Origin: Anaerolineae bacterium
GTDB taxonomy: Bacteria > Chloroflexota > Anaerolineae > Aggregatilineales > Phototrophicaceae
Direction: 5' to 3'
Assembly (NCBI GenBank): GCA_022843745.1
Contig: JALHNB010000001.1
Span: 152,019-216,018 of the forward strand
Length of the DNA: 64,000 nt
The notes beneath the pieces are model-generated. The model ran no database searches. It worked only from the letters and a program-made list of their open reading frames with translations, and was not told the DNA's origin. Positions within the stretch are counted from its first letter, which is position 1; each line of letters opens with the position of its first letter. Below, one piece after another: positions 6,054-24,966 of this stretch. The position numbers and the translations under genes are program-made.

Positions 6054-7135
6054 CACAGCAAATGCCGCGCTTCGTAATAGGCTTTCCAGGATGAGCCGGA
6101 TTTTTCTTTGACGACATTGTTGAAATAATGGCGCAGCTTTTTGAGGTCATCCTCGGATTCTTTGATCGTCGAGCCGATTAAGCTCTGCACCAGCGTTTCC
6201 GGCGTGACGTGCTGTGTGCCGTAATAATAAGAGTGGATGCCTGCCGCGTAGCCAGCGGAGACAGCTTCAGCGGTACTCATCACTGTCGTCAGCGTCGAAA
6301 TCGCCTGACCATCGGCGGTTTGGCCGCGCCGCAGTTCGTGGAAAGTCGTCACCAGCAGTTCGGTCATATCTGGCGGCAGCGTGACCGGAACGCCCGCACG
6401 TTTGAGCAGCTTATCCGTTTCGCGCTGCACCAGTGCCATTTCTTGGTTCAAATCGGCAATGGGCTGCACAGTTTCGAAATTAAAGCGTCGTTTCAGCGCC
6501 GCGCTCATTTCGTTCACGCCCCGGTCACGGGTGTTGGCGGTGGCGATCAGATTAAAGCCCATGCGCGCGAAAAGCGTGCTGCCTTCGCCGGGGAGTTCCG
6601 GGATCGCCATCACGCGATCACTGAGAATCGACAGCAGCGTATCCTGAATTTCCAGTGGGCAGCGCGTGATTTCCTCAAAACGCACGACCTGCCCATTTTT
6701 CATGCCGTTGTAAAGCGGCGCAGGCACAAGTGAGCGTTCGCTGGGGCCTTCTGCCAGCAGCAGCGCGTAATTCCACGAATATTTAATGTTGTCCTCGGTG
6801 GTTCCGGCGCTGCCCTGGATGATCTGAGTCGAATCGCCGCTGATCGCCGTCGCCAGAAGTTCGCTCAAATAGCTTTTGGCCGTACCCGGTTCACCGATCA
6901 GCAGCAGGCCGCGATTGGTCGCCAGCGCCACGACACAGCGCTCGATCACGCTCCTTGCGCCGACGAATTTGGCCGAAATTTTGGCCTTTTCGTCGCCCAA
7001 CACGAATTTGACGACTGACTGCGGCGTTAAACGCCACCCCGCAGGCCTGGGTTTATCGGCATCGCTCGAGCGCAGCTTTTCGAGTTCCTCGGCGTATAAA
7101 ACTTCTGCTGCCGGACGCTGAATATTTTCGATCAT
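6053..7135 (-). CDS. MoxR-type AAA+ ATPase
   Basis: A 360-residue AAA+ ATPase of the MoxR class. Walker A is GEPGTAKS at 81-88. The Walker B segment reads [10 protein letters not shown] (151-160), where the usual Asp-Glu pair is Glu-Glu; the following TRCPLE matches the MoxR DExNR-x-P region. A sensor-1 segment is visible in [11 protein letters not shown]. MoxR ATPases act with VWA proteins as chaperone-like remodelling or activation machines. The gene overlaps both neighbours: its ATG shares ATGA with the end of DUF4132, and its stop overlaps the DUF5682 start. Translational coupling is therefore likely, implying set stoichiometry. Confidence 0.9.
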
Positions 7136-9858
7136 TTTTCACCTCGATACGTCAGCACGAACAGATCGCGCAGGACTTCACTCATCACCACCGGGTCAAT
7201 CTCGCCCAATTTTATTTTTTGAGCTTTATGATCGTGGTATCCGATCTGGGTATGTACCCCGCGCAGAAAATAGCAGCGTTCAATATTCTGGTCATCCCAG
7301 CCGTCATAATAGCCTATCGGAATGCCGGGATATTCGATAAAGGCTGTCACATTATCGGAGTGGAATGGCTTCACATGCCCCATATAGATACCATTATCCA
7401 TCGGCGTACCGCGTATCCAGCCGAGTTTTTGCGTGATGCCCATCATCGGCAGGACTTGAATTTTGATCTCTGCAAATCGCGTGATTTCAAAAGCATCGCG
7501 TTCTTCCGGCAGCAGCGCATAGGTTTTCCGAGCCAACTGCGGAAAAGGCGGGATAATCTCATAATCGCCAAAAACCTCGCTCCATTTTGCCATGTCGTCG
7601 GGGCTCAAATGTAAAGGATGCGCCAGACCGATGCAATCGACATCGCCCAGCGTAAACGGGTCATCGTCGGAATTGGCGAAATCCTTTTCGTCGGTGATGC
7701 GGAAGGTCATTTTCAGCTTGCCGTCGCGGCTATAGCCGCCCCATAGTAAGCGCCGCGCAATATGGATCATCAGCGGGTGGTTGACGATGAAATTTTCAAA
7801 CTCATCCTGTGACCAGCGCCGCTTGCCCAGAAGGGCCTGTTCCAGCCTTCCACTCTGGACTTTGGCAACCTCACGCACCTGCTTTTTGATGAGCTTCCAT
7901 TCCAATACCGCTTGTTCCGCTAACTGTGTATCATCGGTTTTGATCGGCTTCGGTAAATTCGATTTGAGTTTTCCGGCTTCATCGCGAATCTGCGGCTTGA
8001 GGTCAGAATCAAGCGCGAAGGTGAATTTTCGTGCGCCAAAATCGAATATGCGCCGCCCATCGTCGTCCAGCCCACAGTCAGGGATAATGCGGTCATCCAA
8101 TTGATCTTTGGTCATGCCTCGTTCGGCAGCAATCACATCAATCGCCTTACGTGCCGCCTGTTTGATGGCGTTATACTGCGCTTTCTGGCCGATGCTGTTG
8201 ATCTGCATGAGCGCCGTGTCGCTGCCAATCGCGCGTAAGCAGTTCAAGCCCACCACTGCGCGTTGATGCTGCGATTCGCCCGGCCATTTGCGGATATAGG
8301 GCGCGAGTTGCAGCGCTGTGCCGTCGCCACCGAGCAAGCCAAGCGACAGCATCGCCCATTTTTCTTTGGAGGATGCACCGCGATTTTGCCAGAGTTCGAA
8401 CAGCCCCCAGGCAAAGCGATCCCGCACCGGAGCAGGGACATTCTGCTTGAGCGCCTTCACCAGCGGGTGTGGGCCTTCGAGTGTGCTGTGGCTCAATGCT
8501 GTCAGCACCGCCGCGCCCTGCTCGGTATTGAGCGCGTGTCCGTCAATGATGATTGGCGGCAGTTCAGTGATGTCCAACCACGCAGGCATTTTGAATTTTT
8601 TCCCGGTTTGTGCGGCGGCGATGCCATCTTTCAGCCAGCCGGGGGTATTTTCGGCTGTAAGCGCGGGCGGGGTGTCATCCACATAATCGAGAATTTCCGA
8701 TTTAAACTTTTCCTGCTGCGAAGGATCGAGTGTATCGTGTATGGCTTGCAACTCGGCCAGATGCCCTTTGGGTTTGAGGCCGCGCAAAAAATCACGCGCG
8801 TTATGGCTGTTTTTGCCACCGTTCAGGAAAAGCTGTGCTGCGCCACGTTCGGCGATGTCACGATGTTCGGCGTTCAACCACTTGATCGCGCCCATTGATA
8901 CGGAGCTGCCACGCTGTAACTCCAGCATGATCGGAACAGCCGCTTCGTCTTCGATCAGTGTCAAAACTTTGAATAATTTTTCGGCCTCCTGTTTAGTGCG
9001 GGCGTGTTCAATCGATTCCTGAAGCCAATCGAGCGCACGGGTTTCGGTATGTGCTAACCAGGCGATGGCATGGCGGGGGTTTATCAGGTAATGACCGATG
9101 CGCCGGGTATGCTGCTCAACCAGTTCCGGGTTGTCTAATCCAAAGATGACTTCAAGGCCACCCAAAGAATTATAAGTAGGATGAGGTGGAGCTTGACTGG
9201 GTATCGTCGCGATGATGGCTTCTAATTCATGCGAAAACCCACCTACCGCCGCCGCGAGATAAAAAACAGGCTGTGCGCCATAATAGCCGGGTGTCCACTG
9301 AGCATTTGCCAGCACAGGACGCACAATGTTGCGGACACGGCTGCGTTCGTCGGCGTTCAGATAGGGCATGACATAATCGTAAAAACCTTCGATCAGATGG
9401 GGATAAAGATAATAGCCGTATGGTGTCTGTATGAAGGAATCGCAGAGATATTCCGTCAACTCTTCAATCGAGAGCAGATTTGCCAGGATAATCACAATTT
9501 CTGATGGGAAGTTACGCAGATTTGTAATCGCAAGGATTGCCTCAACATCTTCCCAGCCTGCCGGGTCATCAAATGTCATCGCTGCCAGGCTATCCGCCAC
9601 TTTTTTGGGTTCATTCAACTGATAATTTTTAGGCGTAAGCGCTTCGCTGATCGCTGTCAGCCAAAAAAGCGCCTCCTGGTGGGTGATACTGATAGGAATC
9701 CGACCTAATTCTACCTGCCACCAGTTCCAATTGTGCTTGGCGTTACGAATGCGCTCGCATAGAGTCTGCTGGTCAAATGACCGGGGAGAAGGCCGAGGAA
9801 TTGGAGTGTAGTCGCGCCAAGTTGCCCAACACCAATCTTCAGGTTGCAGCCGTATCAT
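7132..9858 (-). CDS. DUF4132 (MolR-like) protein with HEAT-like repeats
   Basis: A 908-residue protein, first gene of the five-gene operon. The central part (roughly 150-620) is made of short helical repeats compatible with HEAT repeats. The C-terminal ~250 residues match DUF4132: [12 protein letters not shown], then a [16 protein letters not shown] segment, [11 protein letters not shown] and a closing IGYHDHKAQ region. DUF4132/MolR proteins have no settled biochemical role; they occur with WGR domains and with MoxR/VWA genes. The ATG at 9858 has a strong ribosome site (GAGGAGG, 6 bases upstream). I see no transmembrane segments, so a large cytoplasmic scaffold is likely. Confidence 0.8.
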
Positions 9859-10127: not shown

Positions 10128-12824
10128 ATGGAAGATTATAGACCTGACCCCGACGAACTGTTGGCAGCAATCCAGAAAGACGAGGCTCGCCAGCAGCGTG
10201 CCAAGCTGAAGATTTTCTTTGGAATGGTCGCGGGTGTTGGCAAAACCTACACGATGCTGAATGCGGCACGTCAGCTTCAGTCTGAAGGGGTGGATGTGGT
10301 GGTCGGTTATGTCGAAACCCATAAACGCGCCGAAACCGAAGCGCTGCTTGATGGGCTTGAGATCATCCCTCGGCAAAAGCTGGAATATCGCGGCACGATT
10401 CTGGAAGAAATGGACATTGATGCGATTCTGGCGCGTCAGCCGAAACTGGTGCTGGTCGATGAATTGGCGCATACCAATGCCCCCGGTGCGCGACATATCA
10501 AACGCTATCAGGACGTGATCGAGCTGCTCGAAGCCGGGATTGATGTGTATACGACGGTCAACGTCCAGCATTTTGAGAGTCGCGCGGACGCGGTTAGCCA
10601 GATTACAGGTATCACGATTCATGAAACCGTGCCGGATTCGGTTTTGGATATGGCAAATGAGATTGAACTCATTGACCTCTCACCAGACGATCTGAGAAAG
10701 CGTCTGGCTGAGGGCAAGGTTTACGTTCCAGACCGTATCGAAACGGCTGCTAACAATTTTTTCCGCACGGGCAATCTGACAGCACTGCGCGAGATGGCGC
10801 TGCGGCTTACCGCCGAACACGTTGACCATAAGCTGCAAGATTACATGCAGGTCAAGCGGATCGCCGGGCCGTGGAAATCTGGCGAACGGCTGATGGTCGC
10901 GATTGGCGTGAGTCCTTTTTCGGAAAAATTGATCCGCTGGACACGACGTGTTGCTTACAACCTGGAAGCGCCCTGGCTGGTGGCTTATATTGAAACATCT
11001 CGAACGCTTTCAGCAGAAGATAAAGAGCGCTTGGCGCAAAATCTTGCGCTGGCCCGCAACCTGGGCAGCGAAATCGTTATCAGCGCGGGCGACGACATTG
11101 ACGAAGCGCTGATCCGGCTCGCTCGTCAGCGCAATGTAACGCAGATTGTCGTTGGCAAGCCGCAAAGTTCGCGTTGGCAGCGGTTTTTACGCGGTGGTTC
11201 GCTGGTGGACAAGCTCATACATGCCAGTGGCAATATTGATATTTACGTCGTGACTGGAGATGAGCCAGAGCAAACGAAGCCGCGCCTGCCATTGCCACGG
11301 ACGGTGCAGCATTCATCATGGCGACAATATCTATGGGCTATCATTATCGTTGCCATCATTACGGCAATTGATTTGCTGGCTTTTAACTATTTTGAGTTTT
11401 TGGAATATGAAGTCGTCGGTTTGACGGAATTATTCGCCGTCCTGTTGATTGCCATTTATATCGGGCGTGGCCCGGCACTTCTGGCAGCGGCGGTCAGCGC
11501 GATTTCGTGGAATTTTCTGTTTATCACGCCGCGTTTTACATTTGAAATCTCACGTTTACAGGATTTAATTTTGTTCGGGCTGTATTTCGTGATCGCCATT
11601 TTTACAGGCAATCTGACTGCTCGTGTCCGTACACAGGAGCGACAGGCGCGTTATAATGCAGATCGTACAATGGCGCTCTACACATTGGCACACGAGACGG
11701 CAACTGCGGTCAACATGGAAGATGTGTTGGGAACAGGCGTTGCACAAATTGAGCATGTGTTCGATGCACAGGTCGCCATTATCCTGCTGCAATCCGATGG
11801 TCGATTGGGACGGGAAGCGCATAATTGCAGCACCTTGCAGGTTGATGAAAAAGACTTCAGCGTCGCTACGTGGGTCTTTGAACATGGCAAACCAGCCGGA
11901 CGTTTTACCGATACGCTGCCGCTGGCAACCGCGCAATTTTTGCCGCTGCTGACCCCTAACCGCACCGTCGGTGTGATGGCGATCCGCACCCGCCAAAACG
12001 AGCGTTTATCGTTTGACCAGGAGGCGATGCTGGAAACATTTACTTATCAGATCGCGCTGGTGATCGAGCGCGAGATGCTGGATGAAGCCGCCGAGCAATC
12101 GGCGATGCTGCGAGAGTCAGAGCGCCTTTACACGACACTTTTGAACTCGATTTCGCACGAACTGCGCACACCCATTGCGACGATTGCCGGGGCAGCCAGC
12201 AGCCTGGCTAATCCGCAGACCAGCGCGAACGGGGAAGTCCGGGCGGAATTGACGCGCGATATTCAGGACGCGGCGGATCGCCTGAATCGTCTGGTTGAAA
12301 ATCTGCTCGACATGTCTCGTCTGGACGCTGGGCGGCTCAAGCTCAAGTTGGATTGGTGCAATGTGGGTGAGGTGATCGGTGTAGCCGTAAAGCGCCTGGA
12401 AAAATGTTTGTCCAAGCGCCCGTTAAGTATCCAATATGCGCCGAATTTACCGCTGGTACAGATGGATTTTGTTTTGATGGAGCAGGTCATCGTGAATTTA
12501 CTGGACAATATCTGCAATTATACGCCGCCTGCGAGTCCGGTTGAAATTCGCGCCGACATGGATGAAAAATCATTGGTTATCGCGATCACTGACGCTGGAA
12601 AAGGTATCCCGCCAGAAGAGATGGAGCGCATTTTTGAAAAATTCTATCGCGTTCCGGGTACGGCGACGGGCGGAACAGGTTTGGGATTGTCGATTTGTCG
12701 TGGGCTGGTCGAAGCACATGGGGGCAGCCTGACCGTAGAAAATGTTCCAAATGGTGGGGCGCGTTTTATGATCCGGCTGCCGGCGAACGCGACAGCACCA
12801 CCTGTAAAGGAGGCCAGTTTATGA
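10128..12824 (+). CDS. kdpD: KdpD-type sensor histidine kinase
   Basis: An 898-residue sensor kinase with the full KdpD layout. The N-terminal KdpD domain has Walker A (GMVAGVGKTYTML, ~32-44) and LVDELAHTNAPG. A universal-stress-protein domain follows at ~250-370, four membrane segments of the DUF4118 type at ~400-500, then a GAF-like region. The transmitter carries ISHELRTPIATIAG (phospho-His), an NLLDN N-box and the DAGKGIP and GTGLGLSI ATP-binding boxes. KdpD senses K+ limitation or turgor and phosphorylates KdpE. The ATG at 10128 follows AAAGGA by 7 bases. The stop overlaps the kdpE start (ATGA). No kdpFABC genes lie in this window, so the target may be elsewhere, or may include the channel gene on the other side of kdpE. 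Confidence 0.95.
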   Translation: MEDYRPDPDELLAAIQKDEARQQRAKLKIFFGMVAGVGKTYTMLNAARQLQSEGVDVVVGYVETHKRAETEALLDGLEIIPRQKLEYRGTILEEMDIDAILARQPKLVLVDELAHTNAPGARHIKRYQDVIELLEAGIDVYTTVNVQHFESRADAVSQITGITIHETVPDSVLDMANEIELIDLSPDDLRKRLAEGKVYVPDRIETAANNFFRTGNLTALREMALRLTAEHVDHKLQDYMQVKRIAGPWKSGERLMVAIGVSPFSEKLIRWTRRVAYNLEAPWLVAYIETSRTLSAEDKERLAQNLALARNLGSEIVISAGDDIDEALIRLARQRNVTQIVVGKPQSSRWQRFLRGGSLVDKLIHASGNIDIYVVTGDEPEQTKPRLPLPRTVQHSSWRQYLWAIIIVAIITAIDLLAFNYFEFLEYEVVGLTELFAVLLIAIYIGRGPALLAAAVSAISWNFLFITPRFTFEISRLQDLILFGLYFVIAIFTGNLTARVRTQERQARYNADRTMALYTLAHETATAVNMEDVLGTGVAQIEHVFDAQVAIILLQSDGRLGREAHNCSTLQVDEKDFSVATWVFEHGKPAGRFTDTLPLATAQFLPLLTPNRTVGVMAIRTRQNERLSFDQEAMLETFTYQIALVIEREMLDEAAEQSAMLRESERLYTTLLNSISHELRTPIATIAGAASSLANPQTSANGEVRAELTRDIQDAADRLNRLVENLLDMSRLDAGRLKLKLDWCNVGEVIGVAVKRLEKCLSKRPLSIQYAPNLPLVQMDFVLMEQVIVNLLDNICNYTPPASPVEIRADMDEKSLVIAITDAGKGIPPEEMERIFEKFYRVPGTATGGTGLGLSICRGLVEAHGGSLTVENVPNGGARFMIRLPANATAPPVKEASL

Positions 12825-13510
12825 GCGAGGGGCCGCTTGTCCTGATTGTGGACGATGAGTTGCAAATTCGGCGTTTTCTCAGGATCAGTCTGGAAGCGAA
12901 CGGTTATCAGGTGCATGAAACCAACAGCGGACAGGACGCTATCGTCAAGACCGCCCAGCTTCGCCCTGATCTGATTATCCTGGATATTGGCTTGCCGGAC
13001 ATTGATGGCCTGGAAGTCCTGAAACGTTTACGTGAGTGGACAAAAACGCCGGTCATTATGTTGTCTGTGCGCGATTCAGATCGTGATAAAGTTGCTGCGC
13101 TGGACGCAGGCGCAGACGATTATCTGACCAAGCCGTTCAGTGTGGAAGAACTCATGGCGCGGCTGCGGGTCGCCCAGCGTCATAACCAGCCTCAAATTGA
13201 AGAAGCGGTTTTTACGGCAGGTGATGTTCAGGTCGATATGGCGCGGCGATTAGTCACTAAAAAAGATGTCCCTGTGAAGCTGACTCCCACCGAATATGGG
13301 CTGCTGCGTTTGCTCATCCAGCACGCAGGCAAAGTGCTGACTCATCATCAGATTTTGAAAGAGGTCTGGGGGCCGGAATATGTCAACGAAACTCATTATC
13401 TGCGGGTTTATTTTGCGCAGCTACGGCAAAAATTAGAAGATGATCCCACACTGCCCAAGATTATTTTGACCGAACCCGGTGTTGGCTATCGGCTGATAGG
13501 CGACGAATGA
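12821..13510 (+). CDS. kdpE: KdpE-type OmpR-family response regulator
   Basis: A 229-residue regulator with receiver and winged-helix DNA-binding domains. The receiver has the acidic pair DD (11-12), phospho-acceptor Asp55 in ILDIGLPD and the conserved Lys in LTKPF. The C-terminal half has the OmpR/PhoB signature LTPTEYGLLRLL and ends EPGVGYRLIGDE. I place the start at the ATG at 12821, which has a perfect ribosome site (AAAGGAGG) and a 4-base overlap with kdpD; the frame is open further upstream, but that part lies inside kdpD. It is expected to activate K+ uptake genes. It converges on the channel gene, with a 21-bp gap. Confidence 0.95.
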   Translation: MSEGPLVLIVDDELQIRRFLRISLEANGYQVHETNSGQDAIVKTAQLRPDLIILDIGLPDIDGLEVLKRLREWTKTPVIMLSVRDSDRDKVAALDAGADDYLTKPFSVEELMARLRVAQRHNQPQIEEAVFTAGDVQVDMARRLVTKKDVPVKLTPTEYGLLRLLIQHAGKVLTHHQILKEVWGPEYVNETHYLRVYFAQLRQKLEDDPTLPKIILTEPGVGYRLIGDE

Positions 13511-13531: not shown

Positions 13532-14620
13532 CTATTTTTCCCGGTTGCGTGCCACAACATCTATTACACGCTCATGATGAGCGAAAATAACCAGCGTATC
13601 ACCCGCGCTCACAATGGTATCGCGGTGCGGCTGCACATGAGTCTCCCCATTGCTGCTGTGAAGCACAATGTCCATATCATTTTCTTTTTGCAGCATCCCC
13701 ACTTCGCGACCATCCAGAAATGATCCTCGCTTAACTGTCAGCCGGACGGTGCTGTAATCCACGTCATTCACGCGCACACTTTGCGCCATTTCCACGCCAA
13801 CGGCTAACCCGGCGAACACGGGCGCGGAAAGTTCTGATGAACTCAGGACAGATTGTACGTTCATAAATCGCGTAATTTGTTGGGCGAACTGGTCATCCCA
13901 GACACGGGCGACAATGCGCACATCGGGGTTCATGTCGCGGGCGCGCATGATCGCTTCCAGATTGACCTGATCGTTGCCTGTGCAGGCGACAAATGCCTCA
14001 GCATCGCGCAGTCCGGCTTTTTCCAGCGTGATGGATGCGCGTCCATCCAGCACCAGCAGCGGCACGTCAAGCTCACGCAGCATATCTTCAATGCCGTCGT
14101 CCGGGTCATTGTCGATGACCACCACATCAAATCCCATATCAGTCAGGGTACGGATGACACGTGCGCCCACATGTCCAGCGCCAAAAACGATCACATGATT
14201 ACGATAAGTCGAAGCCACCGCTTCCCTCCAGGCATCGCGTCGTTCATCGCGATTGAAAAACAGACGCACGAAATCCGCCACGCCGTTGCCAACGATAAAC
14301 ACCAGAACAGGTGGCAGCAGATACCAGAACAGTACCAACTGCCATTCTGGTGGTACATCTTCTGGCGTTTCCAGAATCATCAGTTGCAGCATCATATAAG
14401 GGCGGTCAATCAGCGGGATCGAAACGCCGCGCAAATTGTAATAAATTTCGCCGTAGATATAGCCACCGACCAGAGTCACCGCCAGGAAAGCCAGAATCGG
14501 CTTATAAAATTGCCGCCAAAGTGCACGAGTATCCCGCCAGACGGCGCGTACTTTGCGGAGTAAGGCCGCCGCCCGCCGCCGACGTGGGCGAATCGGGACG
14601 ACAAATTGAGGCGCAGGCAT
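13532..14620 (-). CDS. Two-TM TrkA/RCK-domain channel-like protein without a TVGYG filter
   Basis: A 362-residue membrane protein. An Arg-rich N-terminus is followed by TM1 (~41-60), a re-entrant-looking segment (70-92) and TM2 (~95-120). A TrkA-N Rossmann domain then starts with VIVFGAGHVG (143-152) and the acidic VVIDND strand end, and a TrkA-C-like domain closes (SFLDGREVGML to LVIFAHHERV). This is the 2-TM/RCK architecture of bacterial K+ channels. However, the pore loop reads LQLMILETPEDVPPEWQ and lacks TVGYG, so ion selectivity is unclear. It may be a non-K+ channel or a gating-only subunit. The start lies 5 bp after the TPR gene, so the two are probably cotranscribed. Its position next to kdpDE suggests osmotic or ionic homeostasis. 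Confidence 0.75.
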   Translation of the reverse strand: MPAPQFVVPIRPRRRRAAALLRKVRAVWRDTRALWRQFYKPILAFLAVTLVGGYIYGEIYYNLRGVSIPLIDRPYMMLQLMILETPEDVPPEWQLVLFWYLLPPVLVFIVGNGVADFVRLFFNRDERRDAWREAVASTYRNHVIVFGAGHVGARVIRTLTDMGFDVVVIDNDPDDGIEDMLRELDVPLLVLDGRASITLEKAGLRDAEAFVACTGNDQVNLEAIMRARDMNPDVRIVARVWDDQFAQQITRFMNVQSVLSSSELSAPVFAGLAVGVEMAQSVRVNDVDYSTVRLTVKRGSFLDGREVGMLQKENDMDIVLHSSNGETHVQPHRDTIVSAGDTLVIFAHHERVIDVVARNREK

Positions 14621-14625
14621 CCTGT

Positions 14626-15903
14626 TTAGCGTCTTACCAGCGTGCGTTCAGTGTCCGCGCTCAGGACGATCCAGCCTTCGACGCTATCGCCCGCCGCGCT
14701 CACACGCCACCAGACATAGCCATCGGCACTCTCCGGGTCTTCAAGGGTGGTCGCAAACACGCCGTTGGGCAGCCGTTCGACAATTTCGAAATCCAGCCCC
14801 GGCCCGGTGCGCAAATTCAGAAAATCGTCTTTTGTGGTTTGAACGATCACATCATCGCCGACTTCGAGGCCAGGGTCTACATTCAGGGTAAGGTCAATTT
14901 CGCCTGTAAAACCGCCGCCTGCATGACTGACCACCAGCGTGTATTTGCCATCTTCTGGGATCGCGTAGCCATCAATGAGCGAGTCCAGGCCGCCCGCGCC
15001 GTCGTCATTGGCAGCAACGGCATCCCCTTCGCCATTCAGCAGCACCACCAGCGGGTCGATTGATTCGCCATCATCTGCTTTGCCGACAGCTGTTATATTC
15101 AGGACCTGCCCCAATTTTCCCGACAGGGGAAAGTAGTAGGTCATCCCCTCTTCCATCGGCAGGGAGACTGTCGAGCCAATTTCGTAATCGGAACGTTCGA
15201 CTTTTTCGATCTCGTTCGCGTCAACCCAGCGCCAGAAATCCGTATAGGCGCTTTCGGCCTCGTTGGATAATTCAAAAATCACGGCGCGTGTCAGGAAAAG
15301 ATCGGACTTGACTTCAATTTCCAGCGCACGATTGATGTCATCCAGCGCCAGGTCATATTCTTCAAGATCTATGTAGATGTTGGCGCGATTTTCTAATGCC
15401 AGCGTATCATCAGCTTCGAATTCAATGGCGCGGGTGTAATCTTCTAATGCCAGATCGAACTGCTCCATGCTCATGTAGGCGACGGCTCGGTTGTTATAGC
15501 CTGCCCAATCACTCGGCGAAAGCTCAATATAGCGACTATACATATCGACAGCATCCTGAAACTCGCCTGTTTCCTGCAACGAATAGGCTACTCTGAAGAC
15601 AGCATCCGCATTGTCCGGCTGCTCATTCATGACACGCTGATAATCGGCTAATGATGCTTCGTAATTTTCTTCCTGAAAATAAATCGCGCCACGCTGTTCA
15701 TAGGCATCCGTTCGCGTCGAATCCAATTCAATCGCGCAATCGTAGTAGCCTAACGCGAGTTCATACTGCTCTTTTTGAACAGCTTGCTCTGCTTTATCGA
15801 TATAGAGATCGGCGTTTCCAGCGGTGCAGTCGTCCGATGTTTGCGCGGCCACAGGGATGATTGCGGACAATAAAAATATGATAAGCAGCAGTGATCGTCT
15901 CAT
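14626..15903 (-). CDS. Secreted TPR - PPC-like - SH3b protein
   Basis: About 425 residues. Signal peptide: MRRSLLLIIFLLSAIIPVAAQ. Four to five tetratricopeptide repeats follow (~30-215; for example AYEQRGAIYFQEENYEASLADYQ read in two parts). Next comes a beta-sandwich resembling a bacterial pre-peptidase C-terminal domain (VLLNGEGDAVAANDDG, YTLVVSHAGG) and a C-terminal SH3b domain (LNLRTGPGLDFEIVERLPNG). SH3b domains usually bind cell-wall peptides. Two adjacent ATGs occur; the one at 15903 is better spaced from GAGG, with 15906 as the alternative. The channel gene follows after 5 bp, so this may be an extracytoplasmic partner, for example a wall-stress sensor. The exact role is unknown. Confidence 0.75.
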   Translation of the reverse strand: MRRSLLLIIFLLSAIIPVAAQTSDDCTAGNADLYIDKAEQAVQKEQYELALGYYDCAIELDSTRTDAYEQRGAIYFQEENYEASLADYQRVMNEQPDNADAVFRVAYSLQETGEFQDAVDMYSRYIELSPSDWAGYNNRAVAYMSMEQFDLALEDYTRAIEFEADDTLALENRANIYIDLEEYDLALDDINRALEIEVKSDLFLTRAVIFELSNEAESAYTDFWRWVDANEIEKVERSDYEIGSTVSLPMEEGMTYYFPLSGKLGQVLNITAVGKADDGESIDPLVVLLNGEGDAVAANDDGAGGLDSLIDGYAIPEDGKYTLVVSHAGGGFTGEIDLTLNVDPGLEVGDDVIVQTTKDDFLNLRTGPGLDFEIVERLPNGVFATTLEDPESADGYVWWRVSAAGDSVEGWIVLSADTERTLVRR

Positions 15904-15950
15904 CATTACCTCGTGAATAAACAGTAAATTCAAATCTCATTTTAGCATTG

Positions 15951-16003: not shown

Positions 16004-17503
16004 TTAGTCGCCGGAGCGTTCGCCTGCCGTCACCGAGAGCGATGGCAGCGCCGGGCCGCAGCACAGGACAAGCTGCTTTGCCGCCCGCACTTCGTCCAGC
16101 CGCGAAACTGGGGTCACATGTGGCGCGGTCTTGAGCAGTTCAGGATTTTCGTGCGCTTCCTGGGCGATTTTCTTCATCGCGTCGATAAATTCATCCAGCG
16201 TCGCTTTGGCTTCCGTCTCCGTCGGCTCGATCAGAAGCGCTTCGGGGACGATCAGCGGGAAATAATTCGTTGGCGGGTGAATCCCGTAGTCCATCAGACG
16301 CTTGGAAATATCGAGCGCGTGAATATCGTCGATGCCCTCAAAATGGCCTTCCAGCACGAATTCGTGGGCGCAGATTCGCGGATAAGGGATTTTGTAGGTG
16401 TCCTTTAGCCGAGCGCGAATGTAGTTGGCGTTCAACACGGCATGGCGCGAAATATCCTTGATGCCCTGGTCGCCGTGAATGCGAATGTAGGTATAGGCGC
16501 GGACGTGCATCCCGAAATTACCCTGGAATGCCTTCAACTGCCCGATAGTTTTTTCTGGCGCTCGTAGGCCGTAGAGTGGCGCTTCTTCGTCATCCGTCGG
16601 CGCTTCGACAATCTGCGATGTCGGGCCGGGCAGATAATCCTTGAGCTTTTCGCCTGCGCCCACCGCGCCGCAGCCGGGGCCGCCGCCACCGTGCGGGGTC
16701 GAGAATGTTTTGTGCAGATTGTAGTGCATTACATCGAAGCCGAGTTCCCCCGGCTTGACCACACCCATGAGCGCGTTCATGTTCGCGCCGTCCATATACA
16801 TCAGGCCGCCGCAGTCATGTACTGCCTGAATTACATCCAGAATCTGGCTTTCGAACAGGCCAAGTGTGCTGGGTACAGTAATCATCATTCCAGCGACGGT
16901 ATCATCGCAGGCTGCTTGGAGCGCCTTGAGGTCAACATCGCCGTTTTCGTCCGATGGCAGTTCAACAGCCTGCAATCCCGCCATGCTGACCGTCGCAGGA
17001 TTGGTGCCATGTGCGCTGTTGGGGACGAGAATTTTGGTGCGTTTCCTATCGCCGCGATCCAGATGATATTTGCGGATCATCAAAATTCCGGCCAGTTCGC
17101 CCTGTGCGCCTGCTGCTGGGGCGAGGCTCACGGCTTTGAATCCACTGATCTCCGCCAGCCATTCCTGAAGCTGGTACATCAAGGCTAACGCACCCTGTGA
17201 GCCTTCTTCATCGGTCAGAGGGTGAAGCTGCGCGAAACCGGGCAGACGCGCCATATCTTCGTTGATCTTAGGGTTGTACTTCATCGTACATGACCCCAGC
17301 GGATAGAAGCCTGAGTCAATGGAGTAATTCTTCTTGCTGAGATTGACGAAATGCCGGATCACCTGCAATTCGCCGACTTCGGGCAGATTCAATTCGGTGC
17401 GTAATAGTTCGGTGGGCAGCGATGTCTCCGGCACATCGACATCTGGCAGCAGCACGCCGCGCCGTCCGGGTGCGCTAATGTCGTAAATGGTAGGTTCGGT
17501 CAT
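16004..17503 (-). CDS. gcvPB: Glycine dehydrogenase (decarboxylating) subunit 2
   Basis: A 499-residue beta subunit of the split P-protein. It decarboxylates glycine using pyridoxal phosphate and passes the aminomethyl group to lipoylated GcvH. The PLP lysine lies in MHYNLHKTFSTPHGGGGPG. FYPLGSCTMKYNPKINE and the PNSAHGTNPA segment are typical of the family, and the length is normal. The ATG at 17503 overlaps the gcvPA stop by ATGA. Expression should depend on the glycine riboswitch upstream of gcvH, and a terminator follows the gene. Confidence 0.97.
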   Translation of the reverse strand: MTEPTIYDISAPGRRGVLLPDVDVPETSLPTELLRTELNLPEVGELQVIRHFVNLSKKNYSIDSGFYPLGSCTMKYNPKINEDMARLPGFAQLHPLTDEEGSQGALALMYQLQEWLAEISGFKAVSLAPAAGAQGELAGILMIRKYHLDRGDRKRTKILVPNSAHGTNPATVSMAGLQAVELPSDENGDVDLKALQAACDDTVAGMMITVPSTLGLFESQILDVIQAVHDCGGLMYMDGANMNALMGVVKPGELGFDVMHYNLHKTFSTPHGGGGPGCGAVGAGEKLKDYLPGPTSQIVEAPTDDEEAPLYGLRAPEKTIGQLKAFQGNFGMHVRAYTYIRIHGDQGIKDISRHAVLNANYIRARLKDTYKIPYPRICAHEFVLEGHFEGIDDIHALDISKRLMDYGIHPPTNYFPLIVPEALLIEPTETEAKATLDEFIDAMKKIAQEAHENPELLKTAPHVTPVSRLDEVRAAKQLVLCCGPALPSLSVTAGERSGD

Positions 17504-18837
17504 GCGGACACCTCTTTTAGAGCGCTCACAAGCGCATCAATTTCGTCTTTGCGATTCATTTCCGTCACGCAGACCAGCATATGATCCTTCAGGTGCGGGT
17601 AATCTTTGCCCACATCGTAGCCGCCAAGGATGCCGTGCTTATATAGATGATCGTTGATTTCGCTTATTGGACGCGGGCATTTAACGACAAATTCGTTGAA
17701 AAATGGCTTGCTCATATCGACGCTGTAGGCTTCGAGCGCGTTGATCTGCTTGGCGGCGTAATGCGCCTTGTGGAAGCACAATTCGGCGGCACGGCGAATC
17801 CCATATTTACCCATTAGCGACATATAAACGGAGGCTGAGAGCGCCATCAAGCCTTGATTTGTGCAGATGTTGCTCGATGCTTTTTCGCGCCGGATGTCCT
17901 GTTCACGGGGGCGCAGCGTCATCACATAGGCACGCTTGCCATTCATATCCAGCGTTTCGCCGATAATGCGTCCGGCAATTTTGCGAACGTATTCGGTGCG
18001 CGTGGCAAAGAATCCGAGATATGGCCCGCCGTAGCTCAAGGGAATGCCCATCGGCTGACCCTCACCGACCACGATGTCCGCGCCGAGTTCGCCGGGGCTT
18101 TTGAACATCCCCAGCGCCATTGGATTCGCCACAAATACGAGTAATGCGCCTGCTTCGTGAACTTTTTCAGCCAGCGTCTTGAAATCGTCGATCTGCCCGA
18201 AGAAATTGGGGTATGAAACCGCCAGCATCGCCGTATTTTCGTCCAGCATATCGACTAAATCGGAAACATCGGCGCGGCCTTTATCGCCAACAATTTTGAT
18301 GTTCGTTCCCTGGTGATAGGTACGCACGACAGCGCGATACTGGGGATTGATCGCGGGGCTGAGGATAATTTTGGTGCGTTTGTGGCGCGAAACTTCTACC
18401 GCGACGGTGACGGCTTCGGCAAGGCTGGTCGCGCCGTCGTAATGGCTGGCATTGGCGGCATCCATGCCTGTCAGCGCACACATCATACTCTGATATTCAA
18501 AGGTTGCTTGCAGCGTCCCCTGGCTCATTTCGGGCTGATAGGGCGTGTAGGCGGTATAAAATTCGCCGCGCAGCAAAATATGATTGACGGCGGACGGGAT
18601 GAAATGATGATACGCGCCCGCGCCGCGAAAAATCGCGAAATCCTGCGCATTATCATTGGCCTCGCCTAGTGCTTGCAGTTCGGCGATAACGTCCATTTCG
18701 CTCAGGGGTGCAGGCAGGTCAAGCGCTGGAAAACGGTGTGTCGAAGGGACTGCTTCGAACAAGTCCTCGATGGTCGAGACTCCAATGGCCGACAGCATTT
18801 GCTGCCGTTCGGCATCGGTATGGGGTATATAGCTCAT
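17500..18837 (-). CDS. gcvPA: Glycine dehydrogenase (decarboxylating) subunit 1
   Basis: A 445-residue alpha subunit of the two-part P-protein, forming the enzyme with GcvPB. Family hallmarks are IPHTDAERQQML at the N-terminus, FRGAGAYHHFIPSAVNHIL, YTPYQPEMSQGTLQ and GEGQPMGIPLSYGGPYLG. The ATG at 18837 is 17 bp from the gcvH stop. The order H-PA-PB is common; the T-protein (aminomethyltransferase) gene is not in the window. Confidence 0.97.
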   Translation of the reverse strand: MSYIPHTDAERQQMLSAIGVSTIEDLFEAVPSTHRFPALDLPAPLSEMDVIAELQALGEANDNAQDFAIFRGAGAYHHFIPSAVNHILLRGEFYTAYTPYQPEMSQGTLQATFEYQSMMCALTGMDAANASHYDGATSLAEAVTVAVEVSRHKRTKIILSPAINPQYRAVVRTYHQGTNIKIVGDKGRADVSDLVDMLDENTAMLAVSYPNFFGQIDDFKTLAEKVHEAGALLVFVANPMALGMFKSPGELGADIVVGEGQPMGIPLSYGGPYLGFFATRTEYVRKIAGRIIGETLDMNGKRAYVMTLRPREQDIRREKASSNICTNQGLMALSASVYMSLMGKYGIRRAAELCFHKAHYAAKQINALEAYSVDMSKPFFNEFVVKCPRPISEINDHLYKHGILGGYDVGKDYPHLKDHMLVCVTEMNRKDEIDALVSALKEVSA

Positions 18838-18854
18838 AGATTATTCCCTGGATA

Positions 18855-19247
18855 CTAACGATTCTCGCAATAGGTGTCGTAGGCGGCGGAGTCCATCAGG
18901 CTGTCGGCCTCGGAAGCATTATCCAATTTGACCTTGATAATCCAGGCTTTGCCGTAGGGGTCGCCATTAATCAATTCCGGGGTGTCTTCCAGTTCGCTGT
19001 TGATCCCCGTTACCGTGCCGCTTACGGGTGCGCTCAAATCCGAGGCCGCTTTGACGGATTCGACAACGCCAAACGCTTCGCCCTTCGCGATTTTCGCGCC
19101 GACTTCTGGAAGCTCGACAAACACAATATCGTTGAGCGAATCCTGGGCATAATCGCTGATGCCAATAGTCGCCGTGTCGCCTTCAATGCGAATCCATTCA
19201 TCCGTTTTGGCATATTTCAAATCGGCGGGTGTGTTCCATTTTCCCAT
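18855..19247 (-). CDS. gcvH: Glycine cleavage system H protein
   Basis: A 130-residue lipoyl carrier that shuttles the aminomethyl group between P and T proteins. The lipoylated lysine is K66 in GVVESVKAASDL, followed by the APVSG turn. I choose the ATG at 19247 (MGKWNTPADLKY) because GGAGG lies 8 bases upstream; the longer reading frame to 19289 would run back towards the riboswitch terminator. First gene of the gcvH-gcvPA-gcvPB operon. Confidence 0.96.
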   Translation of the reverse strand: MGKWNTPADLKYAKTDEWIRIEGDTATIGISDYAQDSLNDIVFVELPEVGAKIAKGEAFGVVESVKAASDLSAPVSGTVTGINSELEDTPELINGDPYGKAWIIKVKLDNASEADSLMDSAAYDTYCENR

Positions 19248-19270
19248 GCTGAAATCCTCCAGGTTGAGTC

Positions 19271-19310
19271 CAAAATAAAAAGAGCGCACACGCAGGCTGC
19301 TGTGCGCTCT
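19271..19310 (-). terminator. Intrinsic terminator of the glycine riboswitch
   Basis: On the minus strand AGAGCGCACA pairs perfectly with TGTGCGCTCT across a 10-base loop, followed directly by TTTTATTTTGG. It lies between the glycine aptamer and the gcvH ribosome site, so it is the likely expression platform. Ligand binding would be expected to prevent termination. Confidence 0.85.
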
Positions 19311-21159: not shown

Positions 21160-21233
21160 CGGCGTGGTACACGTGCCATGATGCTGCACACTACTTAACG
21201 ACGTGGCACACGTGCCATGATGCTGCACACCAC
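21156..21233 (-). repeat. 39-bp tandem duplication of the murF-alr 3' end, stop included
   Basis: Two adjacent 39-bp copies (21195-21233 and 21156-21194) differ at about 5 positions. On the minus strand each encodes VVCSIMARVPRR followed by a stop (TAA, then TAG) in the same frame. The second stop overlaps the SCO stop in a shared CTAG. Either the gene end was duplicated, or a once longer protein now ends at the first copy. Confidence 0.85.
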
Positions 21234-23744
21234 TTCGTAATTATTCGTCCCTAAAGACCGGGCAATGTCGTTCGCACTGATTTCGGCATTGCCCTGCTTG
21301 CCCAGCAGAACAACCTCATCGCCAATCGCTACATCGGGAATATGGGTGACATTAATCGTGGTTTTTTCCATACCCACACGCCCGACAATCGGCGCGAACT
21401 GCCCATGAACCAGCACACGCCCCCAGTTATTCGGCATTCTTCGGAAACCATAGGCATAGCCCACCGGCAGGACAGCGATTCGCTCTTGCCCGCTGGTGTA
21501 ATAGGTTTGACCGTAACCAATCGGATGATTGGCTGGCAGCGTTTTCACCTGTGCGACCACCGTTTTCCAGGTCATCGCCGTGCGGAAATTCTCTGGAATA
21601 GGAACGGTGTCGGAGGGTGAGAGGCCATAGAGCGCCACACCAATGCGCACCATATTAAAATAGCTGTCTTTGGAGGTGAGGACAGCCGCCGTGTTCGCCG
21701 CATGAATATATTTAAACTTAAAGTCGCTGGCGCGTACCGGGTTAACCACACTTTTAAATGTGCGCAGTTGTTCGGCGGTATAGGCCGGGTCTTCATCCGC
21801 CATCGAAAAATGCGTGTAAATGCCTTCGATTTCCAGATGCGCGAGATTCACCAGGCGCCGGAAGAAGGCAATCGCCTCACGCGACAGCACACCCATGCGC
21901 CCCATGCCTGTATCAATTTTTACATGCACGACCAGATTGCTGCCGATTTCACGTGCAGCGCGGTTATAAGCGTGGGCGATGTCTACGTCGTAAAGAGTCA
22001 GCCAGATATTGTTGCGAATGGCCTGCCGAACGCCATAAACCGGCGTGTAGCCCATCACCAGAATCGGTGCATCAATCCCAGCATCGCGCAGTTCCAACGC
22101 TTCGTTCAGTGCTGCCACGCCCAATATTTCAGCGCCATTTGCCAATGCGGTCAGGCTGGTAGCCACTGCTCCGTGTCCATAGCCGTCTGCTTTGACGACT
22201 GCCATCAGCGTAACCTGATCGCCGATCATCTCTTTAATCAGGCGCACATTGTGGGCTATCGCGCTTTTATCGACCTCGATCCAGGCCGTGCGCGTGGGTT
22301 GGAACAACGTCGCTGTGTCCCAGGCCGTACCCCGCCGGGCAAGCTGGAGGCGATCATCCTCATTTTTCAAAAGCGCTTGTGTCACCAGTTCCATGCGGGC
22401 CGATTTTCCACCCTTGAGCAAGACAATATCGTCTGCTGTAAGGGGGGAGCGCTCGCTAAATACGCTAACGGTGTCCTGGACGCTGTAGGTCATAAAAACC
22501 TTGCGACGATCTTTGCCTTGATCGAGCGCTGCCCGTGCCACCAGAGACGCTTCAGCGCCTTCCGTGACGATCACATCTGTGATTTCCGTCGCGCGCTGCC
22601 CAATCATCCGGTGTCCACGTGGGCTGTAACTGCCCAGATTGCCCATATCGCCCATCACAAAAATACGACGATTCGTATTTTCGCCAATGGATTGCAGCCA
22701 ATCCAAAGCGGCCAGGGTCGATTGGGGTGTCGCGTCATATGTATCGTCAATGAGCAAACAATCGTTAATGCCCGTCAGCGGATTCATCCGTCCGGGGAGG
22801 GGAGTCATTTCGGTGAGGATGCGGAGTCCATCTTCAAGCGTGATGCCGTAACGCAAACCAACTGTCAGCGCGAAAAGCACACTGTAAAGCTGATGCTTGC
22901 CCAGCAGCGGTGTCCAGCGACCAACATATCTTTCGCTGCCAAAACGAAGGTCGAACCCTGTTTTGGTTAAACCCGCGACGATGTTATAGGCCATCATGTC
23001 AGCACCAAAATCAGCTGTTCCTACGGTCATGACTTTGGCGCGTGTTCGGCTGGACATTGCCCGCACCAGGTCATCATCGTAATTCAGAATTGCCAGCCCG
23101 GAAGGTGTGACGTGCTCTAAAAGTACGCCTTCTTCCTGCGCGATCTGTTCCAGGGTGTTGAAATTGTCGGTATAGGCATAACCAATATTGGTGACAACGC
23201 CCACTTCTGGCTCAAGGGTCTGCGCAATTTCGTTCATTTCGCCGGGCTGGGATGCGCCCAATTCCATGACGACGATCTCATGCTCAGACCTCAGCTTTGC
23301 CAGTATCAGTGGCAAGCGCAGTCTTCCCTGCTGATCTTCAGCACCTTTGAGAACGTTGTGGCGGGATGAGAGAATCCGGCTGATGGCTTCCGTTGTGACG
23401 GATTTGCCCGATGAGCCAGTTACCGTGATAACGTGCGGATTCAGCTTTTTCAGGGCGAAACGCGCCCAGGCCATCATTGCCGTTTCCGTATCTTTAACGA
23501 TAACGACTGAGATGCCTTCAGAATCAAAATCCGGCGGCTGGGTACACAAAACGCCTCGCGCACCGCGCTCAATCGCGGCCTGAATATGCTGAGAGGTATC
23601 ACCTTGATCGGTTTTGCGTGTTACATATAAGTGATTATCTTCTGCGAGGTCAGAATCCAGGCAAAAGTTGGTGAAAAGCTGGGCGCTCGGTTCACCAAAG
23701 AGTTGACCATTTGCGGCTTCGAGTAAGTCATATAGGCTAATCAT
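21195..23744 (-). CDS. Bifunctional MurF - alanine racemase fusion
   Basis: About 849 residues. The N-terminal ~470 residues are MurF (UDP-MurNAc-tripeptide:D-Ala-D-Ala ligase): ITVTGSSGKSVTTEAI phosphate loop, EIVVMELGASQPGEM and LLIDDTYDATPQS. The C-terminal ~370 residues are alanine racemase: the PLP lysine in AVVKADGYGHGA and the YGQTYY / VGYAYGFRR segments. The fusion joins D-Ala production with its use in peptidoglycan synthesis and is known in Bacteroidetes and some other phyla. I use the ATG at 23744 (MISLYDLLEAANG); the frame is open further upstream without family sequence. The gene is divergent from tgt. Confidence 0.93.
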   Translation of the reverse strand: MISLYDLLEAANGQLFGEPSAQLFTNFCLDSDLAEDNHLYVTRKTDQGDTSQHIQAAIERGARGVLCTQPPDFDSEGISVVIVKDTETAMMAWARFALKKLNPHVITVTGSSGKSVTTEAISRILSSRHNVLKGAEDQQGRLRLPLILAKLRSEHEIVVMELGASQPGEMNEIAQTLEPEVGVVTNIGYAYTDNFNTLEQIAQEEGVLLEHVTPSGLAILNYDDDLVRAMSSRTRAKVMTVGTADFGADMMAYNIVAGLTKTGFDLRFGSERYVGRWTPLLGKHQLYSVLFALTVGLRYGITLEDGLRILTEMTPLPGRMNPLTGINDCLLIDDTYDATPQSTLAALDWLQSIGENTNRRIFVMGDMGNLGSYSPRGHRMIGQRATEITDVIVTEGAEASLVARAALDQGKDRRKVFMTYSVQDTVSVFSERSPLTADDIVLLKGGKSARMELVTQALLKNEDDRLQLARRGTAWDTATLFQPTRTAWIEVDKSAIAHNVRLIKEMIGDQVTLMAVVKADGYGHGAVATSLTALANGAEILGVAALNEALELRDAGIDAPILVMGYTPVYGVRQAIRNNIWLTLYDVDIAHAYNRAAREIGSNLVVHVKIDTGMGRMGVLSREAIAFFRRLVNLAHLEIEGIYTHFSMADEDPAYTAEQLRTFKSVVNPVRASDFKFKYIHAANTAAVLTSKDSYFNMVRIGVALYGLSPSDTVPIPENFRTAMTWKTVVAQVKTLPANHPIGYGQTYYTSGQERIAVLPVGYAYGFRRMPNNWGRVLVHGQFAPIVGRVGMEKTTINVTHIPDVAIGDEVVLLGKQGNAEISANDIARSLGTNNYEVVCSIMARVPRR

Positions 23745-23749
23745 AATTG

Positions 23750-23768
23750 AGCAGTATATCACTGCTCT
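23750..23768 (-). promoter_or_regulatory. Inverted repeat just upstream of murF-alr
   Basis: GAGCAGT, five bases (ATATC), ACTGCTC: a perfect 7-bp dyad directly before the ATG at 23744. It covers a TATACT element on the minus strand, so it could be an operator or a leader hairpin. No regulator can be assigned. Confidence 0.35.
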
Positions 23769-23789
23769 GCACAGTGTGCTACCGACTAG

Positions 23790-23818
23790 ACGACAGCCGT
23801 GCAAAGTTCTGTTATAAT
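23790..23818 (+). promoter_or_regulatory. Promoter of tgt
   Basis: ACGACA, 17 bases, TATAAT (perfect -10) about 30 bases before the tgt ATG. Confidence 0.6.
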
Positions 23819-23820
23819 AA

Positions 23821-24966
<1,146 letters not shown>

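Follow-up and report, generated by a model that had tools for sequence, protein, structure and literature searches.

RCK gating rings occur mostly in K+ channels and K+ transporters. MthK, a Ca2+-gated K+ channel, combines two transmembrane helices (2TM) with one RCK domain, and the TrkA and KtrA regulators are not known to have transmembrane helices of their own. GsuK (2TM and two RCK domains) is a weakly selective K+ channel whose filter has Phe in place of Tyr, and it carries a GxGxxG motif in RCK2 and is activated by ADP and NAD+, according to the accessible part of its description (PMC3510474). Of the plant nuclear Ca2+ channels with an RCK ring (CASTOR, POLLUX and DMI1), CASTOR is described, in the portion of the report available, as an RCK channel without TVGYG that is Ca2+ selective and whose current is abolished by the filter exchange D265N (PMC6697748). 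Here we compare with these systems a 362-residue protein, P0001, encoded in a 64,000-nucleotide stretch of an Anaerolineae bacterium genome (contig JALHNB010000001.1), which we call the window.

The gene for P0001 lies at 13532..14620 on the minus strand in an intact frame of 362 codons, and the initial annotation gave its ORF, strand and coordinates correctly in calling it an RCK channel-like protein without TVGYG. In the RCK N-lobe (residues 142-262, 13835..14197, minus strand), Pfam matches TrkA_N at residues 143-260 with an E-value of 2.2e-24. The C-lobe (residues 290-358, 13547..13753, minus strand) also appears in the AlphaFold model, and its TrkA_C match is sub-threshold (E 9.6e-4; 19.5 bits, where the cut-off is 27). 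Neither Ion_trans_2 (PF07885) nor Ion_trans matches P0001 at 0.01, and the NCBIfam TrkA models match far under their cut-offs. Searched as a single sequence against PDB sequences, P0001 matches TrkA, KefC and, weakly, MthK; a scan of viral_contigs with P0001 gave zero matches.

An AlphaFold2 monomer model of P0001, built from 63 rows, has a mean pLDDT of 82 and a pTM of 0.64. These are 63 of 78 rows, with near-duplicates and truncated rows omitted. In the model, helices 12-64, 72-81 and 93-122 precede the RCK fold, so both TM helices and a pore helix are in place. The earlier claim of a two-TM plus TrkA-N/TrkA-C frame holds for the helices, TrkA_N and the intact ORF, with TrkA_C remaining under threshold. 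TM1 (residues 40-62, limits inferred from hydrophobicity; 14435..14503) falls within helix 12-64. The conserved pore helix (residues 72-81, DRPYMMLQLM; 14378..14407) leads into the sequence ILETP (residues 82-86; 14363..14377), and TM2 (residues 93-122; 14255..14344) contains Pro103 and Gly113, all on the minus strand. When the pore part was modelled alone, with 37 of the 63 rows, the three helices were unchanged (pLDDT 86).

Several comparisons place this fold among P-loop channels. A profile of 63 relatives matches full-length MthK entries among PDB sequences from position 35-38 to 342 (E 5e-16 to 1e-14), a match that covers both pore and RCK domain. Full-length MthK (6u68_A) is also the top Foldseek match of the whole model (E 3.7e-16, 331 columns), and VIA-align 2, which ranks only Foldseek's own matches, aligns 296 residues of model positions 36-362 with it (Z 17.2, rmsd 6.9). 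Identity in these structural alignments is about 17-20%. P0001 is therefore like MthK in whole-chain fold and order (2TM, pore helix, one RCK) and unlike it in having no TVGYG. For the TM part alone, Foldseek gives TM-scores of 0.69-0.70 with KcsA and up to 0.77 with GsuK, at weak E-values (best 0.06). By VIA-align 2, GsuK is closest (Z 10.7, rmsd 2.4, 100 aligned), followed by the bacterial cyclic-nucleotide-regulated channel 3beh, NavAb and CNGA3/CNGB3, tied or nearly so at Z 9.7-9.9.

Compared by hhalign with a set of 16 ordinary 2TM K+ channels of related genomes, the broad TM-only profile A4 aligns over 68 columns at a probability of 74.5 and an E-value of 2.7e-5. The alignment pairs TVGYG with ILETP, aligns the D-x-x-Y-M of the pore helix, and places the later proline of the K+ channels on Pro90. 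The narrower profile A3 gave a probability of 3.4 and an E-value of 0.013 against A5, a TM-only profile found nothing among PDB sequences at E up to 10, and a search with the single pore peptide returned one chance match, an olfactory receptor (E 0.76). By the fold and one profile test, we conclude that the pore of P0001 is homologous to that of K+ channels, with the filter replaced. P0001 has the helix-pore helix-loop-helix domain of K+ channels, as seen by AlphaFold, Foldseek, VIA-align and hhalign, and its second pore helix runs directly into the RCK domain as in the MthK/GsuK type, with TrkA_N in 63/63 members. The TxG(Y/F)G filter, the defining feature of K+ channels, is absent, and by that feature P0001 falls outside the class. 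The pore loop reads ILETPEDVPP, without TxGYG; the 'LILETPED-like' loop of the initial annotation was close to the actual M81-I-L-E-T-P-E-D88.

Proteins of this kind are widespread. Among 41 genomes searched, we found, besides P0001, fifteen matches at 48-66% identity in 14 genomes and five at 35-39%. The GTDB species collection holds at least 77 loci, mostly in Anaerolineae, a lower bound drawn from the best 80 of 98 matches. Five of these records carry the name Gemmatimonadetes, Gemmatimonadota or Longimicrobiales in their titles, one that of Bacteroidetes and one that of Blastocatellia, and binning errors may lie behind some of the non-Chloroflexota records. The copies in the Gemmatimonadota- or Longimicrobiales-titled MAGs (L055, L070, L073, L074 and L083) are 51-57% identical; L070, the only such MAG in our tree, nests among Anaerolineae, by transfer or misbinning. 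Across Chloroflexota, the host genome included, the filterless pore profile is found in 65/400 genomes with A3 and 67/400 with A4. The two genomes added by A4 (E 1.1e-5 and 2.3e-4) also encode RCK proteins that lack the filter and read L-Q in its place. Outside the class, relatives often reach 565-680 aa and, by eye, have a second Rossmann-type half like that of GsuK, whose second RCK domain they seem to share. One genome carries a tandem pair of filterless RCK genes (L068; G015:C40:38105-40400).

The absence of the filter marks a clade and not a single odd gene. A TxG(Y/F)G-type pore motif occurs in 0/111 related proteins, and a lone TVGLG at residue 8 of one relative (L088), before TM1, is a chance occurrence; the loss is well beyond chance. 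For an RCK-domain tree, 38 sequences were chosen and 37 entered (one canonical channel, L189, lacked the anchor motif and was dropped); in it, 27/27 filterless proteins form one clade with support 0.95, and the 10 ordinary channels lie outside this clade. Most likely, the filter was lost once and the rest was kept. That pattern favours function and argues against P0001 being a degenerating K+ channel or pseudogene of this one genome. Such decay could draw on the missing filter and on the host genome (7.96 Mb), which has no Ion_trans_2 match anywhere at E 0.001, a domain that the same search finds in 31/61 genomes of its order. The frame, however, is intact, orthologs in other genomes are 66-70% identical to P0001, and the filter is absent clade-wide while the remainder is conserved in a way that already contradicts a pseudogene, so that we regard decay as scarcely credible. 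Canonical and filterless channels do not exclude one another, as both are present in some genomes (for example, G012 and G015).

The pore helix is conserved to the same degree as the RCK core. In the 63 rows, Pro103 and Trp131 are invariant, Gly113 is kept in 62 and Pro90 in 61. Averaged per column, the information comes to 2.58 bits for the pore helix, 2.06 for positions 82-86, 1.95 for TM1 and 2.37 for the N-lobe of the RCK domain. An alignment of the family had been proposed around an ETPED loop; ETPED itself is not a conserved motif, and the conserved pore features are instead Tyr75, Met81, Glu/Gln84, Pro90 and Pro103. Position 84 holds Glu or Gln in 103/112 rows: Glu in 55, Gln in 16 and other residues in 7 of the 78 rows of the first set, and Gln in 27, Glu in 5 and others in 2 of the 34 rows of a wider set (one locus is in the set twice). 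As Glu84 is not invariant, the family as a whole is not described by a strict acidic-ring filter. In most rows, hydrophobic side chains occupy positions 80-83 (Leu, Met, Ile/Val, Leu/Phe), and a narrow pore could be blocked by them.

In the RCK domain, the Rossmann glycines 147, 149 and 152, together with Asp192, Asp217, Asn220 and Arg239, are invariant in the 63 rows, which makes nucleotide binding by P0001 likely. The earlier suggestion of control by bound nucleotide is plausible, as P0001 retains the GxGHxG Rossmann motif. This nucleotide-type motif is a feature that P0001 shares with GsuK, TrkA and KtrA, the last two resembling it also in having an RCK domain; GsuK differs in being a K+ channel with a filter and in having two RCK domains to the one of P0001.

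The fold (by model), the absent filter, the single origin and the conservation of the pore helix are established. Taken with them, we think it somewhat more probable than otherwise that these proteins are RCK-gated P-loop channels with altered cation selectivity, and this is our best reading. The family, widespread in Chloroflexota, would be old and derived from K+ channels of the MthK/GsuK type; where these have TVGYG, its members have a loop made up of two hydrophobic residues plus Glu or Gln, with a nearly invariant proline at its end. Four subunits would form a pore beneath an RCK ring. NAD(H), ADP or ATP might bind the RCK domain and shift TM2, on the analogy of GsuK and KtrA. As the filter glycines are gone and a Glu/Gln ring stands in their place, the pore would pass cations without K+ selectivity, or may prefer Na+ or a divalent ion. 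A new class of ion pathway had been proposed for this gene; the replaced filter is real and conserved and belongs to a distinct family, and ion passage is what we infer from it.

CASTOR offers a precedent for such a change. It and its relatives resemble P0001 in being RCK-gated P-loop proteins without TVGYG, and CASTOR has an acidic residue in the filter region, as P0001 has Glu84 (PMC6697748, in the part available). CASTOR shows that a Ca2+ channel relying on an acidic filter residue can exist among RCK channels without TVGYG (same source, same part). CASTOR differs in its filter, A-D-S/A-G-N-H-A, and in its extra TM helices, and Castor_Poll_mid is not among the 13 Pfam families found for P0001 at E 0.1. 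Tentatively, and with less confidence than we give the reading of altered selectivity as such, we suggest a Chloroflexota-wide, nucleotide-gated RCK class that is not made up of K+ channels, whose Glu/Gln ring would line a Na+-, Ca2+- or non-selective pore and which would be an independent counterpart of CASTOR.

Other P-loop proteins without a K+ filter were also considered. CNG channels, the NaK-ETPP mimic and bacterial Nav channels (TLESWSM) match P0001 in P-loop fold, and P0001 differs from the CNG and Nav channels in having no voltage sensor and no cyclic-nucleotide domain. The CNG mimic NaK-ETPP has the letters E-T-P that are also in the P0001 loop (PMC6091977, in the part available), and the L-E-S of NavAb, in the accessible part of its description (PMC9204039), resembles the L-E-T of P0001; these shared letters may be due to chance. 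A Nav-like loop (Q-x-M-x-L-E-T), appealing by eye, was a lead only, and hhalign against six Chloroflexota Nav-like pores (E 0.4 and 0.58) gave no similarity. A CNG-like loop was likewise set aside: NaK-ETPP is among the weak TM matches, but E-T-P varies within the family.

A simple acidic-ring channel is opposed most strongly by the exchange of Glu for Gln across the family and by the hydrophobic residues that precede this position. These two features keep in contention our main rival reading, a non-conducting, membrane-anchored RCK sensor, which we consider unlikely though by some way the most serious alternative. Hydrophobic side chains would shut its pore, the fold would serve as anchor and tetramer platform, and the RCK ring, with nucleotide bound, would act on another transporter or protein. 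With no filter glycine left, residues 80-83 hydrophobic and residue 84 not fixed, the pore itself is compatible with this, and TrkA and KtrA are well-known cases of RCK proteins that regulate a separate transporter. Yet the pore helix and loop, with their nearly invariant Pro90, are conserved like the RCK core, and the 77 loci from the best 80 of 98 matches show no partner transporter constantly beside the RCK gene.

The genomic setting had suggested a different role. P0001 converges with kdpE (12818..13510, plus strand), which follows kdpD (10128..12824, plus strand), a full-length sensor kinase; the end of kdpE at 13510 and the RCK stop codon, from 13532, are tail-to-tail and 21 bases apart. 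The RCK gene 'faces' kdpDE, as had been noted, only in this convergent sense. The observation that kdpFABC is lacking is true of the window and not of the genome, in which one KdpA (E 2.2e-241) lies in a kdpA-kdpB-kdpC run on contig C32 without adjoining kdpDE. The window KdpD is the genome's only one, a second match reaching 21.2 bits, under the cut-off. The simplest reading is that the window kdpDE serves the C32 Kdp pump in trans. A new ion pathway under KdpDE control, as first proposed from this proximity, thus meets a pump encoded elsewhere and a sole KdpD, and the convergent genes share no promoter. Moreover, KdpD is found below 1e-30 in 0/77 related loci and at 1e-5 in 3/77 (best 80 of 98 matches; many with short flanks). 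Between the regions upstream of kdpFABC and of the TPR gene described below, the best shared 20-mer matches at 14/20, a score that shuffles also reach. We therefore judge KdpDE control to be very improbable and place P0001 outside any Kdp-controlled K+ system. Further along, a DUF4132 protein of 908 aa (7132-9858, minus strand; E 1.9e-49) has a match in 0/77 related loci from the best 80 of 98 matches.

On its other side, P0001 belongs to a one-strand run, gcvH-gcvPA-gcvPB-TPR-RCK. A TPR/PPC/SH3 protein with a signal-like start (14626..15933, minus strand; Pfam) ends 5 nt before the RCK start codon, and the two genes are probably in one transcript; counts of promoters and terminators were at shuffle level. 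Upstream, on the same strand and named from sequence, are gcvPB, a glycine cleavage P-protein subunit (16004..17503), gcvPA (17500..18837) and gcvH (18855..19289). Among the 77 loci (best 80 of 98 matches), same-strand gcvP or gcvH lies upstream in 20 of the 61 whose upstream flank reaches at least 2.5 kb, 25 of 56 have an SHMT-GcvT fusion downstream, and any of the three is near the RCK gene in 33 of 77, so that glycine-cleavage genes are commoner neighbours than KdpD. The fusion, about 1050 aa, was scanned at L063:1849-5016 (minus strand) and recognized by clustering at 25 other loci. In the host genome, kdpDE fills the place beside the RCK gene, and a GcvT-matching frame of fusion length (1068 aa) is on contig C4.

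This recurrence might mean that the channel is functionally tied to glycine cleavage, for example by sensing NAD(H) from glycine decarboxylation. SCO1 and alanine racemase genes, however, belong to the same gcv block in relatives, with similar genes past gcvH in the window, so shared gene order suffices as an explanation of the link, and distant relatives such as that of Anaerolinea thermolimosa have other neighbours. We consider such a tie improbable. Past gcvH, an 892-aa frame (21195-23873, minus strand) has by reading a Mur-ligase-like part and an alanine racemase, the latter kept near gcv by relatives. In four loci, a TIR-domain protein of about 370 aa stands between gcvPB and the RCK gene (L066:4266-5405, scanned; L071, L096 and L047, by clustering). 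In Anaerolinea thermolimosa (L103:7248-9387), the genes for a SpoIIE-type phosphatase and for a small P-loop-like protein flank the RCK gene (L103:7971-9020), and this pair or trio recurs in L099, L104, L108 and L110.

A search by title and the start of the abstract, with subscription literature mostly beyond it, found no published description of a filterless RCK family. As the filterless genes match TrkA models through their RCK domain, they could be mistaken for K+ uptake genes. The existence of single-RCK and longer two-RCK forms, and of a relative of P0001 in a named strain, Anaerolinea thermolimosa IMO-1, makes the family testable. A monophyletic family that keeps the ring and pore scaffold with the filter swapped would show selectivity rebuilt on a K+ channel frame.
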